Positions 36,165 through 43,526 of a stretch of 43,792 bases of DNA are shown here, piece by piece. The stretch is from NCBI GenBank assembly GCA_007120385.1, contig SKNT01000042.1, forward strand, positions 1 to 43,792. The letters run 5' to 3'. The stretch is from Balneolales bacterium (lineage in GTDB: Bacteria > Bacteroidota > Rhodothermia > Balneolales > Natronogracilivirgulaceae). The notes beneath the pieces were generated by a model that saw nothing but the letters and a program-made list of their open reading frames with translations, did not search any database and was not told the origin of the DNA. Both the position numbers and the translations under genes were made by a program. The stretch's first letter is position 1, and each line of letters starts with the position of its first letter.

Positions 36165-37085
36165 TTACATGTCGCGGTACTGATAGTGCATGCTGCGGGC
36201 TTTTTCGGGGCTGATGCCATGCGGGTTGATGGTGAAAACGGCATTTTTCACACGGCGAACTACGTGTGAAGCCGTGCTGCCCATCATCAGATAATCAAGA
36301 CCCGTACGGCCCACCGAAGAAATCAATACCAGATGATGCCCTTTATCCCGGGCAATCTGCTCGATCTCTGCGTAAGTAGCTCCGCTGCCGGCAATTACTC
36401 TAGCATCCACTCGCTTCCGAATGCTTTTGAAATGGTCGTCTGCCAGATCTTCGATTTCCTTCTGCCGCTTGATAACCGCTTCATCCGCTGCCCCGGAATC
36501 AAAAAACTGCTCACTGCTGACAATGTGGACAAGGTCAATGCTGGCACCTGTTACTTCCGCAATACTGACTGCATAGGGGAATACCTGACAGGAATTTTCA
36601 GAAAAATCGGTGGTCACCATCAATGAGGTCAAATCACCGAGATCCGACGTTTCGGTGACGGTTATCATCGGCTTCTTGCACATGCGCAGCACCTTTTCGG
36701 TCACCGATCCCATTACAAACCGGCTGAATCCCGTCCGCCCGTGCGTGCTCATGATCACCAGATCGAACTGGTTGGAAGTATGGATGATGGAACGTGCCGG
36801 GTTGCCAACATCCAGCAACGGAGGGGAGAGGAGTTCGGGACGGATGTATTTTCCGGCTGCCTCCAGCAACCGTTCATGAAGCACCTTTTCAATTTCGGAA
36901 TACTTCTCATGCGGGGTAATCCCCGATCCCACATAGTAAAAACCATCCAGATCGGTAACCGGAATGTAGGCATGAAACGGCGTGACACTGCCATCGAACA
37001 GACTGGCAAAAGTGTTGGCTGCTTTCAATGCGTGTTCACTCAGCTCTGAGAAATCGACCGGAACAAGAATTTTCGGGTGTAGCAT
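36165..37085 (-). CDS. tandem universal stress protein (two Usp domains)
   Basis: Usp proteins are small cytosolic stress-response proteins, many of which bind ATP. The 306-residue protein contains two Usp domains (about residues 1-145 and 155-288). The first has the start KILVPVDFSELSEHAL and the nucleotide-loop motif MSTHGRTGFSRFVMGSVTEKV. The second has LMVTTDFSENS and SSVGRTGLDYLMMGSTASHV. Both fit GxxG-x9-G(S/T), so ATP binding by both halves is likely. The ATG at 37085 has the strong ribosome-binding site GGGAGG, with a perfect palindrome just upstream. Its neighbours (DUF432-like protein, MscS) suggest osmotic or ionic stress. Confidence 0.93.
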   Translation of the reverse strand: MLHPKILVPVDFSELSEHALKAANTFASLFDGSVTPFHAYIPVTDLDGFYYVGSGITPHEKYSEIEKVLHERLLEAAGKYIRPELLSPPLLDVGNPARSIIHTSNQFDLVIMSTHGRTGFSRFVMGSVTEKVLRMCKKPMITVTETSDLGDLTSLMVTTDFSENSCQVFPYAVSIAEVTGASIDLVHIVSSEQFFDSGAADEAVIKRQKEIEDLADDHFKSIRKRVDARVIAGSGATYAEIEQIARDKGHHLVLISSVGRTGLDYLMMGSTASHVVRRVKNAVFTINPHGISPEKARSMHYQYRDM

Positions 37086-37096
37086 GGCTGGCCTCC

Positions 37097-37130
37097 CTTA
37101 TTTTGAAAATAAGTAATTGGTGCAAGGATA
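37097..37130 (-). promoter_or_regulatory. usp leader with palindrome and -7 element
   Basis: On the minus strand TATCCTTG (7 of 8 to TAnnTTTG) lies at 37130-37123. Downstream of it, next to the ribosome-binding site, is a perfect inverted repeat CTTATTTT-C-AAAATAAG at 37113-37097. No TTG was found at the expected distance upstream of the -7 element. The palindrome may be an operator or an RNA hairpin affecting translation. Confidence 0.4.
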
Positions 37131-37251
37131 AAATTCAGCCTGATTCATCTGCTCTGATCTCAAGATAGCCAAAGATCACACCACTGGAAACAGGCAGCAT
37201 GAATTCCGGCTGGCAAAAACCCGTTTGCTGATTAACTGTGAATCCTGTAAT

Positions 37252-38058
37252 ATGAACCCATTATCCGCAGAATCAATACCTATGGAACCAACTTGCTGGC
37301 CGACTGTAACACTTGAAGAAAAGGGGATCTTCCGCCACAGGGTCGGTCCTCTGACCATCTTTATGAAAAGGCTTTTGAATGAGATCTGGGTGGCCAGTAT
37401 CCGGGATGAGAAATTGCGGGGCGAACCAGCTGGCTTGCCGGAAAAACCGGAATGGATACGCTTGTCTCTGCCCGGTGAATTCGGCGAGTACCGCTTCCAG
37501 CCGGTCATGCCGGACAAGCCGGTGATTATCGATACCGAACATGCCTACCGATTCGTAAGCCAGACACAAACAAGGGTTTTTTCGCGTGTGCCGGTATGGG
37601 TGCGCATAACACCGTCCAGTCGTGATGATCTTATAATTGCCGAATTACCAACGGTGGAGCTGTCTGAAACCTGGTTCGGATCCTTCACAGATGGTGAATT
37701 GGCCTATGCCGTTTCTTCGACTGCCCGGAGAATTCTTACGGAAGACCTGTTGGAACCCCACCTGGTTGTTTGTCCGCTGGAAATCCGCAACAACAGCAGC
37801 GATGAGCTGAAATTTGAGAAGGTCTGTCTTCGTGTGGAACGTCTCTCCATCTTTGCAAAGGGAGATGCGCTCTGGTCGGATGAAACCGTGATCAACTATG
37901 GAGGAAAAGACAGCAGCACGGACATGGAAACGAAGGGTGTGCGTCCGGCTGAGGCCGGTGATGCCATGCGGGTGGGCAAACCGCGCAACCCGGTCAGGAA
38001 AAGCATCGGGCAGAAGACATTCAGGCTCTTGAAAGACTTTCACATACCCGGTTTCTGA
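37252..38058 (+). CDS. DUF432-like protein, upstream of mscS
   Basis: The 268-residue soluble protein has no signal peptide or membrane helix. It resembles in outline the DUF432 family, which I associate with neighbours of mechanosensitive channel genes; this is recall, not a search. Visible features are a beta-rich N-terminal half (LPGEFGEYRFQPVMPDKP, RVPVWVRITPS), TVELSETWFGSFTDGELAYA, and CPLEIRNNSSDELKFEKVCL. The last 50 residues are basic and low in order. The ATG at 37252 is chosen; the frame opens at TTG 37225 and another ATG is at 37282. mscS starts 107 nt downstream on the same strand, and usp is divergent upstream. Function unknown, possibly linked to the channel. Confidence 0.6.
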   Translation: MNPLSAESIPMEPTCWPTVTLEEKGIFRHRVGPLTIFMKRLLNEIWVASIRDEKLRGEPAGLPEKPEWIRLSLPGEFGEYRFQPVMPDKPVIIDTEHAYRFVSQTQTRVFSRVPVWVRITPSSRDDLIIAELPTVELSETWFGSFTDGELAYAVSSTARRILTEDLLEPHLVVCPLEIRNNSSDELKFEKVCLRVERLSIFAKGDALWSDETVINYGGKDSSTDMETKGVRPAEAGDAMRVGKPRNPVRKSIGQKTFRLLKDFHIPGF

Positions 38059-38164
38059 ACCGGCTGCCATTCCCTCTAATGGGGTACATTACCACGGAAT
38101 GACGATTATATCGGCAACATTAGCTACTTTTTTACCTGTTTGATTCACTAAGCAACTGTCACGT

Positions 38165-39073
38165 ATGGAATTTCTCTCAACACTGTTTGGAGAACAGATT
38201 ACCGAAGATCGGTTTTACATTCTGATCAGAGTACTGGTCATTATGTTTGTCGGTCTGCCGCTGCTCATCATCCTCCGTCGTGTTCTGAACCGCTATATCA
38301 CAAAACATTATTCCCAGCATTACGGAATGCTGGCTGGAAAACTTGTTTTTTATATCGGCATAACGATACTGCTGATAACTGTTTTACACGAATTCGGCTT
38401 CAGCCTCACACCGCTGCTCGGGGCGGCCGGCATTGTGGGCATCGCCATCGGATTTGCATCGCAGACCACCGTTTCCAATGTGATCAGCGGGTTTTTCCTT
38501 GTGGCGGAAAAATCATTTGTGGTAGGTGATGTGATCAGTGTCGCCGGAAACGTCGGCGTGGTGTACTCTATTGACACGCTTTCTGTGAAAATCCGGATGT
38601 TCGACAACCGGTTTCTCAGGGTGCCCAACGAAACCATGATCAAGTCTGAGTACATCAACATCACCCGCTTCCCAATCCGGCGGGTGGACTGCAACATATC
38701 CGTAGCCTACAAGGAAGATCTCAAACAGGTGAGTGAGGTCCTGTTCGATGTCGCCGCCAAGTTGCCCTACTCTCTTCAGGAACCCCCGCCACTGCTCATA
38801 TTTGACAAGTTCGGAAGTTCATCCATCGATATACTGTTCGTTGCTTGGGCCAGGAAGGAGAATTTTCTGAAGCTGAGAAACGGACTCAACATGGGCATCA
38901 AGGAGCGGTTCGACAAGGAAGGCATTGAGATCCCGTTCCCGCATGTGTCGGTGTATGCCGGCTCGGCTTCAACACCCCTTCCACTGGAACTTGTTTCCAG
39001 TGACAAGGCCGTACTTTCCAACCGTACCGGAAGTGGCGGTCAGGCCGGGAAACCGGAAGGGGCATCTGAGTAG
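38165..39073 (+). CDS. mscS: small-conductance mechanosensitive channel (MscS family)
   Basis: MscS channels open under membrane tension and release solutes after osmotic down-shock. The 302-residue protein has three N-terminal transmembrane helices (about residues 20-40, 58-78 and 80-110). The pore helix GAAGIVGIAIGFASQTTVSN has the expected Gly/Ala pattern and leads into FFLVAEKSFVVGDVISV, followed by the beta domain with VYSIDTLSVKIRMFDNRFLRVPNE. The C-terminal alpha-beta domain includes ISVAYKEDLKQVSEVL. The last 40 residues are Ser/Gly rich. The start is ATG 38165. It follows the DUF432-like gene and is convergent with the P-II fusion gene. Confidence 0.95.
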   Translation: MEFLSTLFGEQITEDRFYILIRVLVIMFVGLPLLIILRRVLNRYITKHYSQHYGMLAGKLVFYIGITILLITVLHEFGFSLTPLLGAAGIVGIAIGFASQTTVSNVISGFFLVAEKSFVVGDVISVAGNVGVVYSIDTLSVKIRMFDNRFLRVPNETMIKSEYINITRFPIRRVDCNISVAYKEDLKQVSEVLFDVAAKLPYSLQEPPPLLIFDKFGSSSIDILFVAWARKENFLKLRNGLNMGIKERFDKEGIEIPFPHVSVYAGSASTPLPLELVSSDKAVLSNRTGSGGQAGKPEGASE

Positions 39074-39082
39074 GGGAAACGG

Positions 39083-39112
39083 TTGCCGACCTTTCACTTG
39101 CCGACCTTTCAC
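39083..39112. repeat. Perfect 15-bp tandem duplication between mscS and the P-II gene
   Basis: TTGCCGACCTTTCAC occurs twice in direct succession (39083-39097 and 39098-39112). The stop codon of the minus-strand P-II gene lies inside the second copy; the other copy is in the 35-bp convergent gap. An exact repeat in such a gap points to a recent slippage event. Confidence 0.9.
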
Positions 39113-39831
39113 TCTTTTGTCTCTGCTTTCTGAAGCATCTCTTCCAGCAGGTGATTGATCCCGAGTACTTTTTCCACATTCAGCACAAATGCGATTCCCT
39201 TGCCGGGTTTGTCAAGTCTCCCTTTTTTCACGATGGCTTCCAGAACTTTGTCTGTGATCTTTTCGGGCACCAGCGTCAGGACCACCTCTTTCTCCGGCTC
39301 AATATTTAGGGAAAACAGCTTTGCATGTTCATGGACCCCGGTGCCGCGACCGTGTAAAATGGTTCCGCCGGCTGCTCCGGCCTCGCGGGATGCTTCAATA
39401 ATCTCCTCGCAAAATCCCTTGTTCACAATGGTGACGATAAGTTCAAATTGGGCCGTGATATCCATGGATTTCAAAGGTTGGTCCATCGGTTTCTTGTTTT
39501 TCTTGTGGAGGTGTACCGCACCGGTAAACCGGGTAATATCCAGAATGAAAGCTACACCGTTTCCGGGTTTGCTCATTTTTACGCTTTTACTGATGATGTC
39601 CAGAACATTCTCGGCATGCTCGTCTGAAACGACCGTGAAGATCACGTCATTCTCGGGTTCCAGGGGTATTCCCCAGAACTTTTTGCATTCTTCAATCCCG
39701 GTGCCCTGGCCATGAATGATCGTGGCCCCTTCGGCATGTTTGCGCTTGGATGCCTTGATTACCCGTCCGGTCTTGTTCCGGCTGACTATGGTCAGGATGA
39801 GTTTCTGGCAATTTTTTAGCTGTTCAATCAT
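39109..39831 (-). CDS. tandem P-II-like regulatory protein (two fused P-II domains)
   Basis: P-II proteins are small signalling proteins that bind ATP/ADP and often control transporters through a flexible T-loop. The 240-residue protein contains two P-II-like domains in one chain. Each has LILTIV or LIVTIV, then HGQGTG or HGRGTG (residues 40-45 and 160-165), a short T-loop region, EPENDVIFTVV or EPEKEVVLTLV, and a B-loop-like KPGNGVAFIL (88-97) or KPGKGIAFVL (208-217). A basic linker (about 106-123) joins them. The T-loop is short and lacks the Tyr of the uridylylation site. The ATG at 39831 overlaps the 3' end of the upstream DUF1538 gene by 8 nt, so it is translationally coupled. It probably regulates that membrane pair. 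Confidence 0.85.
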   Translation of the reverse strand: MIEQLKNCQKLILTIVSRNKTGRVIKASKRKHAEGATIIHGQGTGIEECKKFWGIPLEPENDVIFTVVSDEHAENVLDIISKSVKMSKPGNGVAFILDITRFTGAVHLHKKNKKPMDQPLKSMDITAQFELIVTIVNKGFCEEIIEASREAGAAGGTILHGRGTGVHEHAKLFSLNIEPEKEVVLTLVPEKITDKVLEAIVKKGRLDKPGKGIAFVLNVEKVLGINHLLEEMLQKAETKE

Positions 39832-40552
39832 TGCGACGTTCTTTCCATGCGTATAACAGTCCCAAGGTAAGGACCGAAATGATAGGAGCCAAGGCAACCA
39901 GGGCTATCATCCCGAAACTGTCGATCATCGGGTCGCGCCCGGGCAGGACCTCGCCCACTCCAAGCGCCACCGCCATGATAAACGTAACGGTCATGGGTCC
40001 TGTTGCGACACCACCGGCATCAAATGCCACCGATGTGAATGTGGGAGACGTGAACTGCATCATGACCAGGGCGATCACATAGCCCGGAAGAACCAGCCAG
40101 ACAATCGGAATTCCCACCAGAAGCCGGAGCATCGCAAGGGCAATGGAAAACCCGACCCCGATGCACAGCGTATACAGCAGCACTTTCTGGGGGATGTACC
40201 CGCCGGACACCTTGTCAACTTCGTGATTCAGGATGCGGATCGCCGGTTCGGCAATGGTGGCAACAAACCCAAGCACAAAGCCGATGGGAATAAGAACCCA
40301 TTTGTGATCCTTGGACCCCAGAACTTTACCCATCATGGTCCCTGCCGGTTCAAACCCGATGTGAACACCCTGCAGGAAGAGAGTGAGTCCGATGAACGCC
40401 AGGAAAATACCCTTAATTATGTCGATAACCTTTTTCCAGGGAAGACGCAACAACAGCACCTGGGCAACCAGGAAAAACACGACCAGCGGAACGAGTGCAA
40501 ATATCACTTCGATAATGACACTGGTAATTCCATTGAATACAGATACGTTCAT
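39824..40552 (-). CDS. DUF1538 family membrane protein (second subunit)
   Basis: The 242-residue protein is very hydrophobic, with about seven transmembrane helices and no signal peptide. It belongs to the DUF1538 family by its motifs: FLQGVHIGFEPAG, FVATIAEPAIRIL and SVAFDAGGVATGPMTVTFI, then MIALVALAPIISVL. The function of DUF1538 is not established; the pattern of membrane-embedded Asp/Gly motifs suggests a transporter. It lies 12 nt after its paralogue (40565-41257) and overlaps the P-II gene by 8 nt. The start is ATG 40552. Confidence 0.85.
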   Translation of the reverse strand: MNVSVFNGITSVIIEVIFALVPLVVFFLVAQVLLLRLPWKKVIDIIKGIFLAFIGLTLFLQGVHIGFEPAGTMMGKVLGSKDHKWVLIPIGFVLGFVATIAEPAIRILNHEVDKVSGGYIPQKVLLYTLCIGVGFSIALAMLRLLVGIPIVWLVLPGYVIALVMMQFTSPTFTSVAFDAGGVATGPMTVTFIMAVALGVGEVLPGRDPMIDSFGMIALVALAPIISVLTLGLLYAWKERRND

Positions 40553-40564
40553 ATGTTCTCTGTG

Positions 40565-41257
40565 CTATCCATAGACTATTCCAAGAATTAATACGGCCAG
40601 TACCGGTCCGATGGAAGCCAGTGCAACAAGGCCAAATCCGCTGTCTGTTGTTTTTCTCCCTCCCAGAACGGCTGCCACCCCGATACCGTAAGCCAGTATG
40701 AAGGGGACGGCCAGGGGCCCGGTCGTTACACCCCCGGCATCAAATGATATGGATACGAACTGCTCGGGGACAAAGTAAGCCAGACCGAATATGAGCAGAT
40801 ACCCGCCGGTCAGCAGATATTTAATCGGAATGTCAAAAATGATACGCAGTACGGCAAGTCCCACGAATATGGCAAGGCCGAGTGCTACGGTATAGATCAG
40901 CAGATGACGATTAACCTGACCGTCCGATACGTTATCGACATAATTGGCCAGAACTCGGACATCAGGTTCGGCTACCGTAACTACAAAACCCAGAACGAAA
41001 CTGATCAGCACGATAAGCCATACCTTCCCCATTCTGGGCAGCGCCGAGCCGATCAGCTCACCGATGGGGAGCAGTCCGATATGAACCCCAAGCAGAAAAA
41101 AAATCAAACCGGCCGAGACCATCACCACCCCGACAATAAATTGCATGAAATCTTCCAGGGGCAGCCAGATGATCGTGAATTGCAGCAGAATCACTACAAT
41201 TGTGACCGGGATGACGGCCTGAATTACTTCGGATACAGTTTCTTTTATGCCTTGCAT
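40565..41257 (-). CDS. DUF1538 family membrane protein (first subunit)
   Basis: The 230-residue paralogue of the next gene, again with about seven transmembrane helices. It shares all main motifs with its partner: FLLGVHIGLLPIG, FVVTVAEPDVRVL, SISFDAGGVTTGPLAVPFI, and LVALASIGPVLAVL. The two together would give a pseudo-symmetric membrane complex. It is the first gene of the DUF1538-DUF1538-P-II operon. The ATG at 41257 has weak upstream ribosome-binding sequence and no clear promoter. The stop is followed by 12 nt and the next gene. Substrate unknown. Confidence 0.85.
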   Translation of the reverse strand: MQGIKETVSEVIQAVIPVTIVVILLQFTIIWLPLEDFMQFIVGVVMVSAGLIFFLLGVHIGLLPIGELIGSALPRMGKVWLIVLISFVLGFVVTVAEPDVRVLANYVDNVSDGQVNRHLLIYTVALGLAIFVGLAVLRIIFDIPIKYLLTGGYLLIFGLAYFVPEQFVSISFDAGGVTTGPLAVPFILAYGIGVAAVLGGRKTTDSGFGLVALASIGPVLAVLILGIVYG

Positions 41258-41441: not shown

Positions 41442-43526
41442 TCAACTCATCCGGAAAAATGTCTTCTTTTCTTCAAGATAGGGAAGAAATACTTTTTTCA
41501 GTGCGGCATGCTTCGGATTCCCAAGCCCGGGATCCGATTCCAGTATTTCCAAAGCGGTGTTTTTGGCAATTTCCAGAAGGTGCTGATCGCTAAGGATATC
41601 AGCATGGCGGAATTCGGGCAGGCCACTCTGCCGGGTTCCCAGAAAATCACCGGGTCCCCGCAACTTAAGGTCGGCTTCGGCAATCCGGAACCCGTCCCCG
41701 GTCTCCAGCATGGTGCCAAGGCGGCTGCGTGCCTCCCGGCTCTGTTTCACATCGGTCATAAGCATGCAGTAGCTTTGCCGTGAACCCCTGCCGATCCGCC
41801 CGCGGAGCTGATGCAGCTGGGAAAGCCCGAATCTTTCGGCATGCTCCACAACCATTACCGATGCGTTTGGCACATTCATGCCAACTTCAATGACCGTGGT
41901 GGAGACCAGGATCTGTATGCGGTTCATTTTGAAATCCCGCATTACTTCCTCTTTTTCCTGGCCGGACATGCGACCGTGAAGCAATCCAACCTGGTACTCC
42001 GGGTATTCCACACGAATCTGGTCGAATCCCTCTGTCGCATTCTTGAGATCCAGGGCCTCCGACTCCTCGATCAGCGGGAAGACCACGTAGATCTGCCCGC
42101 CTTCCTCAAGCCGTTCTGTGATAAACCGGTGCAGCTTTTCCCGTTCAGGCTCACGGATCACCCGGGTAGCAATTTCCTTTCTTCCCGGGGGAAGATCACG
42201 GATAACCGACATATCCAGGTCGCTGTACAGGGTCATGGCAAGCGATCTGGGGATGGGTGTGGCCGACATCACCAGAATGTGGGGGTTTTCCCCCTTCTCG
42301 CGCAACAAAGCCCGCTGAGCCACACCGAACCGATGCTGCTCATCAATGATCGCCATGCCCAGCCGGTGAAACCGAGTGGCATCCTGGATAATGGCGTGCG
42401 TGCCTACCACGATGTCTGCCGTTCCTCCGGAGATGTCAGTCAGGATGTCTTCCCGCAATGCCTTTTTCTGGTTCCCGACTAGCAGACGGAAGTTTACCCC
42501 CAGCGGTTCCAGCCATTCTGAAAGCGAATGGAAATGCTGTTCGGCAAGGATTTCGGTAGGCGCCATCATCACGGCCTGGTACCCGCTGTCGATGGCCATA
42601 AGCATGGAACCGATGGCCACCACCGTTTTGCCCGAACCCACATCACCCTGCAGCAGGCGATTCATCTGCCTGCCTGACCGTATGTCATGCTTGATCTCTC
42701 CGAGCGTGGTTTTCTGGCCTTCCGTAAGTTCAAAAGGCAGCACCTCATTGAAAAAACGGGTGGTCAGAGGTCGCGTTTCCGACATGACAGGTCCGGGTGC
42801 CTTGTCAAAGACCTCCTTTTTCAGCGTGACCACACTGAGTTCGAAAAGAAAAAGTTCCTCGAATTTGAATCGCTCCAGCGCTTTCTTGTGCTGTGCAGGG
42901 CTGTCAGGAGCGTGGATGTGGCGAAATGCAGTGGCGCGATCCGGGTAACCGAACCGGTTGAGCAGGTCTTCAGGAAGAAATTCGGGAACCGCAATCCACT
43001 CCAGCACCGTAAGAATCCATTTCCGAAGCAAACCTGAAGTGATATAGGTGTTTTTGAAAAACTGGTTACCGGGATAGACTGGAATGATGGCGGCAAACCG
43101 CTGGTGTTCATCCCGGGTGGAAGTATCGGTGGATGAAAGCTGTTCCACTTCCGGGTGGGCCATAGAAAGAAATCGGCCAAAACGCTTTACTGTACCAAAA
43201 AATGCGTAATACTCGCCCTTTTTGATTGTTTTGCGGAAATAGGAGATTCCCTTGAACCAGACGGCTTTCAGTTGACCGGTTTCATCCTGAAGGATGGCTT
43301 CCAGCCGCTTTTTCCTCCCGAAGCCGCTCTCACCTACGGCCGATACGGTTCCGATCACGGTAGCTTTCTCCCCGGAGCCCTGAAGCCGGTGGATTTTCAG
43401 TATGGTGCGGCGGTCAAGATAGTTTCTCGGGAAAAACAGGATCAGTTCCCCGGGTGTCCGGATTCCTGAATCCTGCAGTGCCTTTGCCCTTGCCGGGCTG
43501 ATTCCGGGTATGTCGGTGAGTTTCAA
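41442..43526 (-). CDS. recG: ATP-dependent DNA helicase RecG
   Basis: RecG reverses stalled replication forks and drives branch migration. The 694-residue protein has the N-terminal wedge (OB-fold) domain, with GELILFFPRNYLDRR and VWFKGISYFRK, and superfamily 2 helicase motifs: LLQGDVGSGKTVVA (motif I), MAIIDEQHRFGV (motif II, DEQH), LVMSATPIPRSL (motif III), STTVIEVGMNVPNASVMV and LSQLHQLRGRIGRG (motif VI). The C-terminal PGDFLGTRQSG is the RecG signature. Length is typical. The start is TTG at 43526 because an upstream in-frame stop leaves no other choice. It is divergent from rpsL. Confidence 0.96.
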   Translation of the reverse strand: MKLTDIPGISPARAKALQDSGIRTPGELILFFPRNYLDRRTILKIHRLQGSGEKATVIGTVSAVGESGFGRKKRLEAILQDETGQLKAVWFKGISYFRKTIKKGEYYAFFGTVKRFGRFLSMAHPEVEQLSSTDTSTRDEHQRFAAIIPVYPGNQFFKNTYITSGLLRKWILTVLEWIAVPEFLPEDLLNRFGYPDRATAFRHIHAPDSPAQHKKALERFKFEELFLFELSVVTLKKEVFDKAPGPVMSETRPLTTRFFNEVLPFELTEGQKTTLGEIKHDIRSGRQMNRLLQGDVGSGKTVVAIGSMLMAIDSGYQAVMMAPTEILAEQHFHSLSEWLEPLGVNFRLLVGNQKKALREDILTDISGGTADIVVGTHAIIQDATRFHRLGMAIIDEQHRFGVAQRALLREKGENPHILVMSATPIPRSLAMTLYSDLDMSVIRDLPPGRKEIATRVIREPEREKLHRFITERLEEGGQIYVVFPLIEESEALDLKNATEGFDQIRVEYPEYQVGLLHGRMSGQEKEEVMRDFKMNRIQILVSTTVIEVGMNVPNASVMVVEHAERFGLSQLHQLRGRIGRGSRQSYCMLMTDVKQSREARSRLGTMLETGDGFRIAEADLKLRGPGDFLGTRQSGLPEFRHADILSDQHLLEIAKNTALEILESDPGLGNPKHAALKKVFLPYLEEKKTFFRMS

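Follow-up and report, generated by a model that had tools for sequence, protein, structure and literature searches.

P-II proteins that bind membrane transporters are exemplified by GlnK, which acts on AmtB, and SbtB, which acts on SbtA; as reviewed, known P-II clients are trimeric and are mostly nutrient transporters, and individual P-IIs could have multiple targets. The DUF1538 family of membrane proteins has been characterized once. In Halomonas zhaodongensis, UmpA and UmpB are a DUF1538 pair encoded by adjacent genes that forms a heterodimeric Na+(Li+,K+)/H+ antiporter (PMC5484666). The heterodimer was demonstrated by co-immunoprecipitation, UmpA and UmpB jointly but neither alone restored Na+, Li+ and alkaline tolerance in E. 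coli KNabc, antiport of Na+(Li+,K+)/H+ extended over pH 6.5 to 9.5, and seven membrane segments were predicted for each subunit (PMC5484666). Halomonas UmpAB was active in E. coli without a cassette P-II, and P-II is not mentioned in that paper (PMC5484666). A sequence-only reading of the locus described here had regarded DUF1538 as a family of unknown function, which the published antiport makes outdated. It had also named a published function unrelated to transport as evidence that would speak against it; the function on record is transport (PMC5484666).

The window, a 43,792-nucleotide stretch of Balneolales DNA, carries a DUF1538 pair and a tandem P-II protein on its minus strand. The gene for the UmpA-like membrane subunit, DUF1538-A (230 aa, 40565..41257; PF07556 E=9e-76, NCBIfam UmpA E=3e-37), is separated by 12 nt from that of the UmpB-like membrane subunit, DUF1538-B (242 aa, 39824..40552; PF07556 E=2e-74, NCBIfam UmpB E=8e-37). 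The tandem P-II gene (240 aa, 39109..39831) starts at an ATG at 39831 that sits within the final 8 nt of the B gene; an alternative longer frame has a TTG start from 39897. Thus, open reading frames and Pfam profiles confirm the operon of two DUF1538 proteins and a tandem P-II protein, overlapping by 8 nt, that had been proposed from the letters. Two stretches of the P-II protein match PF00543 (E=5.5e-18). Domain bounds place a degenerate N-terminal copy, which belongs to the N-domain clade described below, at residues 6-111 (39499..39816, minus strand) and a copy with conserved residues at 126-231 in the C-terminal half (39139..39456, minus strand). The shared motifs of the DUF1538 pair had also been read exactly: sequence, alignment and model agree on AEPDVRVL (40949..40972) with Glu97 and FDAGGVTTGP (40715..40744) with Asp173 in A, and on AEPAIRIL (40229..40252) with Glu102 and FDAGGVATGP (39995..40024) with Asp178 in B, all on the minus strand.

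Upstream of A on the same strand lies a RecG-like helicase gene (41442-43526, minus strand), named from its sequence. Downstream of the tandem P-II gene, on the opposite strand and convergent with it, a profile match identifies MscS (38165-39073), which together with Usp and a weak DUF432-like match forms a block at 36165-39073. The Usp/DUF432-like/MscS block accompanies the cassette within the window's family and was not found in the rest of the order. A wider osmotic operon including MscS, the DUF432-like gene and Usp was rejected as a general arrangement, these genes being kept in the window's family only. The source genome (2.96 Mb, about 91% complete) holds a single DUF1538 pair, that of the window.

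A and B score 254 and 250 bits, respectively, against PF07556 (cut-off 22.6) over profile positions 1-211 and 2-211, which makes both members of DUF1538. Against the NCBIfam equivalog models, A reaches 128 bits for UmpA (cut-off 490) and B 127 bits for UmpB (cut-off 500). With both scores under their cut-offs, the window pair belongs to the UmpAB family as a remote relative and is no equivalog. It resembles UmpAB in its paired, homologous DUF1538 subunits, encoded by adjacent genes and belonging to two ancient clades; the seven helices per subunit claimed earlier agree with the approximately seven segments of an AlphaFold2 model of a natural fusion and with the predictions for Halomonas UmpA and UmpB. 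It differs in this sequence distance and in having a P-II partner, on which the UmpAB paper is silent. Closer relatives of UmpA and UmpB (312-361 bits to the UmpA/UmpB models) occur in genomes of the phyla to which Pseudodesulfovibrio and Aminicenantes belong, and these too have P-II directly downstream.

To survey the arrangement, we drew DUF1538 loci from four sources. These were genomes related to that of the window, a one-genome-per-species scan of which the best 80 were kept and which is therefore biased toward near relatives, records of plasmids, and evenly drawn samples from four phyla. Removal of duplicates left 174 distinct operons, and 168 of them had at least 400 nt past the last DUF1538 domain. 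P-II was directly downstream in 164 of the 168, in operons spanning Balneolales, Bacillota, Desulfobacterota, Acidobacteriota, Alphaproteobacteria and Archaea. The P-II domain lies a median of 6 nt past the DUF1538 stop codon. Three of the four operons without P-II, from two Sutcliffiella species and Metabacillus lacus, retain an intact pair followed by other genes, and the fourth has a decayed DUF1538 copy (L151). An even sample of 200 Bacillota genomes comprised 66 with both families, 1 with DUF1538 only (the gene decayed), 2 with a P-II match only and 131 with neither. Cassette P-II therefore occurred in 66 of 67 genomes with DUF1538 versus 2 of 133 without (Fisher p=2e-49, a guide only, as species are non-independent). 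The sequence-only reading had proposed checking gene order and co-occurrence across genomes, and had held that genes found apart in most of them would tell against it; because the DUF1538-DUF1538-P-II order is near universal, the proposal survived. The conserved linkage of transporter and P-II genes expected of P-II-gated transporters is thus present.

No recurrent family was found among 112 flanking proteins (the largest had at most 4 members), and neither nitrogen nor carbon genes recurred beside the cassette in this set. The window's own flank of MscS, DUF432-like, Usp and RecG genes is restricted to its family, while the cassette persists through the rest of the order. Chance neighborhood and close kinship were rejected as sources of the gene order, since the cassette crosses domains of life and its flanks change. 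Divergence of P-II tracks that of both subunits (matrix correlation 0.78 with A and 0.79 with B; 0.91 between A and B), a match that would be expected from joint inheritance.

Architectures vary within this constancy: DUF1538 occurs as two genes or fused, and P-II as one gene, two genes or a tandem, with no DUF1538-P-II gene fusion seen among the collected loci. Three loci (L174, L175 and L136) pair a single DUF1538 gene with a single P-II and are possibly homomeric versions of the module. Two others (L164 and L165) are enlarged: a protein of about 710 aa has at least two DUF1538 matches, and the one encoded next has two to three P-II-like domains. At L137 and L142, a single genome carries two complete or near-complete DUF1538-DUF1538-P-II cassettes arranged head to tail. 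A tree of 158 DUF1538 pairs gave a pure A clade (151 A) and a B clade with 150 B among 151 members. Both clades span bacteria and archaea, which points to an ancient A/B duplication. For two-domain P-IIs, the N-domains likewise fell in a single pure clade (110 of 111, with a support of only 0.53), and this topology suggests that P-II was probably duplicated once, the copies later persisting as two genes or as one fused gene.

AlphaFold2 gave a confident model (pLDDT 93, pTM 0.91) of a DUF1538-DUF1538 fusion that occurs naturally in a Balneolales relative (L055). No solved structure for the DUF1538 fold was found by sequence, nor by Foldseek with this model (best E 0.07). In each half of the predicted fusion, the Glu of AEP (97 and 341) occupies a break that separates two helices. 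The FDxGG Asp (175 and 417) is near the end of a short helix, after which a further break follows. Glu97 of A is conserved in 98% of sequences, and A Asp173, B Glu102 and B Asp178 are invariant. Acidic residues in broken helices are usual ion sites of antiporters. On this ground the AEP Glu and FDxGG Asp of each subunit are, in the model, likely candidates for ion or proton sites, and these four acidic residues are the best ones. The AlphaFold2 model of the tandem P-II protein (pLDDT 81) contains the P-II fold twice, with GlnK as the best Foldseek match (E=4e-6). Its linker, residues 116-125, is poorly predicted, so the relative placement of the two domains is uninformative.

Profile and fold place the protein in the P-II superfamily, and an alignment of 265 P-II domains, numbered by E. 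coli GlnK, reveals what this branch has kept and lost. Single P-IIs and C-domains keep Gly27, Thr29, Gly35, Gly37, Gly87, Gly89 and Phe92 (82-100%), the glycine/threonine shell that surrounds adenosine in P-II proteins. The same domains have lost Arg38, Gln39 (mostly His, also Arg), Lys58 (mostly Glu, with Lys next), Lys90 (Ile, Leu, Met or Val), Arg101 (Gly) and Arg103 (varied residues). At least 97% of members lack T-loop positions 43-48, a shortening by six residues, and the uridylylation residue Tyr51 has been lost, with Leu, Phe or Trp mostly in its place. Newly conserved are Arg34, His39, Glu40, the segment EPEKE and, near position 104, a His. The N-domains are degenerate, with shell residues lost. 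Arg38, Lys90, Arg101 and Arg103 have roles in phosphate binding. In GlnK, Gln39 and Lys58 serve Mg2+ and 2-oxoglutarate (PMC3198391). The cassette P-II thus lacks the marks of canonical GlnB/GlnK, namely Tyr51 with a full T-loop and Gln39, Lys58, Lys90, Arg101 and Arg103, and a nitrogen-regulator identity was rejected on the loss of the uridylylation, ATP, Mg2+ and 2-oxoglutarate positions. Gating in the manner of GlnK, which the sequence-only reading had cited as a precedent, is unlikely given the T-loop deletion and the replacement of Tyr51, which argue against plugging by a long T-loop.

Cassette P-II was the only P-II found in Enterococcus lactis (L094) and in an Aminicenantes bacterium (L068), and in Thermoactinomyces mirandus (L040) the only two P-II matches have the spacing of the paired P-II genes in its cassette. 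In the window genome, we found the tandem protein and one weak, unlinked P-II-like protein, and no canonical P-II. The gene for the second protein (L157:1438-1818) follows a look-alike of WYL-type transcription regulators, as judged by eye.

P-II-like genes also adjoin antiporters of other families. A separate P-II-like subfamily (L152:1767-3439, with PF00999 in L152, and L215-L229) lies beside a CPA2-type antiporter, before or after it, in 14 of 15 Bacillota loci as judged by sequence match; at the fifteenth (L228), a different frame, CPA2-like as judged by eye, is adjacent. At L148:274-2106, a P-II-like gene starts 33 nt past a CvrA/NhaP2-type K+/H+ antiporter of the CPA1 group, which scores 601 bits against NF003716 (cut-off 355). 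Judged by its profile match, this is a third antiporter family with a P-II neighbor. The presence of P-II-like genes beside CPA2 and CPA1 antiporters supports a theme of cation/proton transport. At a further locus (L147:1-3050), a cassette-type P-II without DUF1538 follows a pntB transhydrogenase gene in which the NADP-binding domain is repeated three times in tandem.

Comparison with described systems shows partial likeness to each. The cassette shares with AmtB-GlnK a transporter gene beside a P-II gene and the P-II fold, but AmtB has no recognizable similarity to DUF1538, and relative to GlnK the cassette P-II has a shorter T-loop and is missing the uridylylation, ATP and 2-oxoglutarate residues. 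SbtA-SbtB offers P-II-like control, outside nitrogen metabolism, of an ion-coupled transporter, with an altered choice of nucleotide (AMP and cAMP for SbtB); SbtA, however, is a trimeric bicarbonate transporter, and the C-terminal CGPxGC hairpin of SbtB was not seen by eye in the cassette P-II alignments. In YcgO-PtsN, a small soluble signaling protein binds and inhibits a K+/H+ antiporter (PMC11808508). PtsN is a PTS protein rather than a P-II and YcgO belongs to CPA1, although the YcgO/CvrA-type antiporter at L148 does have a P-II-like neighbor gene.

Collectively, these data lead us to favor, with a probability of roughly 0.6, an UmpAB-type antiporter with a dedicated P-II that gates it in response to a signal other than ATP or 2-oxoglutarate. 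A and B would form a pseudo-symmetric heterodimer exchanging monovalent cations (Na+, Li+, K+) for H+. P-II would regulate this exchange from the cytoplasm as a dedicated partner, binding directly to the antiporter and opening or closing it, as suggested by near-constant linkage together with the loss of nitrogen-sensing residues. Its signal would be a small ligand held in the cleft between P-II subunits. With the adenosine shell kept and the ATP-phosphate, Mg2+ and 2-oxoglutarate residues lost, that signal is probably a nucleotide of another kind, a metal or a proton. Of the heteromeric transporter or channel under P-II control suggested at the outset, the P-II-coupled heteromeric transporter stands, upheld by linkage and by UmpAB, whereas the channel gives way to an antiporter. 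The distance of the window pair from UmpAB, the contrast between trimeric P-II clients and the heterodimeric UmpAB, and the few Bacillaceae that have the pair without P-II count against our reading. Activity of UmpAB alone in E. coli and these Bacillaceae also suggest that P-II is a modulator and that transport can proceed without it.

Alternatively, the pair might move a nitrogen or carbon compound, such as ammonium, bicarbonate or an organic ion, while P-II reports nitrogen, carbon or energy status like GlnK or SbtB; Halomonas antiport would then be a side activity or confined to that clade. The nutrient transporters that predominate among known P-II clients and the remoteness of the window pair from Halomonas UmpAB favor this scheme. 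Nonetheless, we consider it unlikely, given the lost uridylylation, 2-oxoglutarate and ATP-phosphate residues, the two genomes with cassette P-II as their sole P-II and the window genome with no canonical one, the lack of recurring nitrogen or carbon neighbors, and the related P-II-like genes beside cation/proton antiporters.

P-II proteins often have several targets. The DUF1538 pair could accordingly be a sensor or membrane anchor, with P-II relaying a signal to transcription, enzymes or other targets and exerting no direct control of an antiporter. Besides this common multiplicity of targets, the cassette-type P-II beside pntB is in keeping with such a relay. We regard it as improbable, however, because linkage extends across domains of life while the neighbors vary, as for a complex, and orphan copies of cassette-type P-II are rare. 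Least probable of all is a structural or assembly subunit that stabilizes the antiporter and carries no signal: near-constant linkage, close gene spacing and degenerate N-domains would suit it, but Halomonas UmpAB needs no P-II for its activity in E. coli (PMC5484666), Sutcliffiella and Metabacillus have kept the pair in the absence of P-II, and the ligand-site shell is strongly conserved in single P-IIs and C-domains.

Na+/H+ exchange helps to set the cytoplasmic pH and salt balance of microbes. If the antiporter is indeed gated by its dedicated P-II, a P-II switch would tie this exchange to a cell signal, bringing ion homeostasis, besides nutrient uptake, under P-II control. A literature search, with most subscription journals outside its reach, found no paper linking DUF1538, UmpAB or cation antiporters with P-II, nor one describing a P-II role in cation antiporter regulation. 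Labels of the form 'P-II family nitrogen regulator' beside DUF1538, for example in plasmid records, would need renaming. The heterodimeric UmpAB, set against trimeric P-II clients, implies either a trimer of heterodimers or a break in the trimer rule, and gating would raise the matter of how a P-II with three-fold symmetry engages an antiporter of two parts, and of whether A/B asymmetry is the reason for the tandem P-II. More broadly, an ancient and widespread P-II branch may have left nitrogen control to become a standard regulator of monovalent cation/proton antiporters, with a signal other than ATP/2-oxoglutarate and with targets other than plain trimers, contrary to the current view that limits P-II to trimeric ones; we offer this wider proposal tentatively, at somewhat under even odds. 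The module is also present in culturable Planococcus, Virgibacillus and methanogens, hosts in which deletion and transport tests are feasible.
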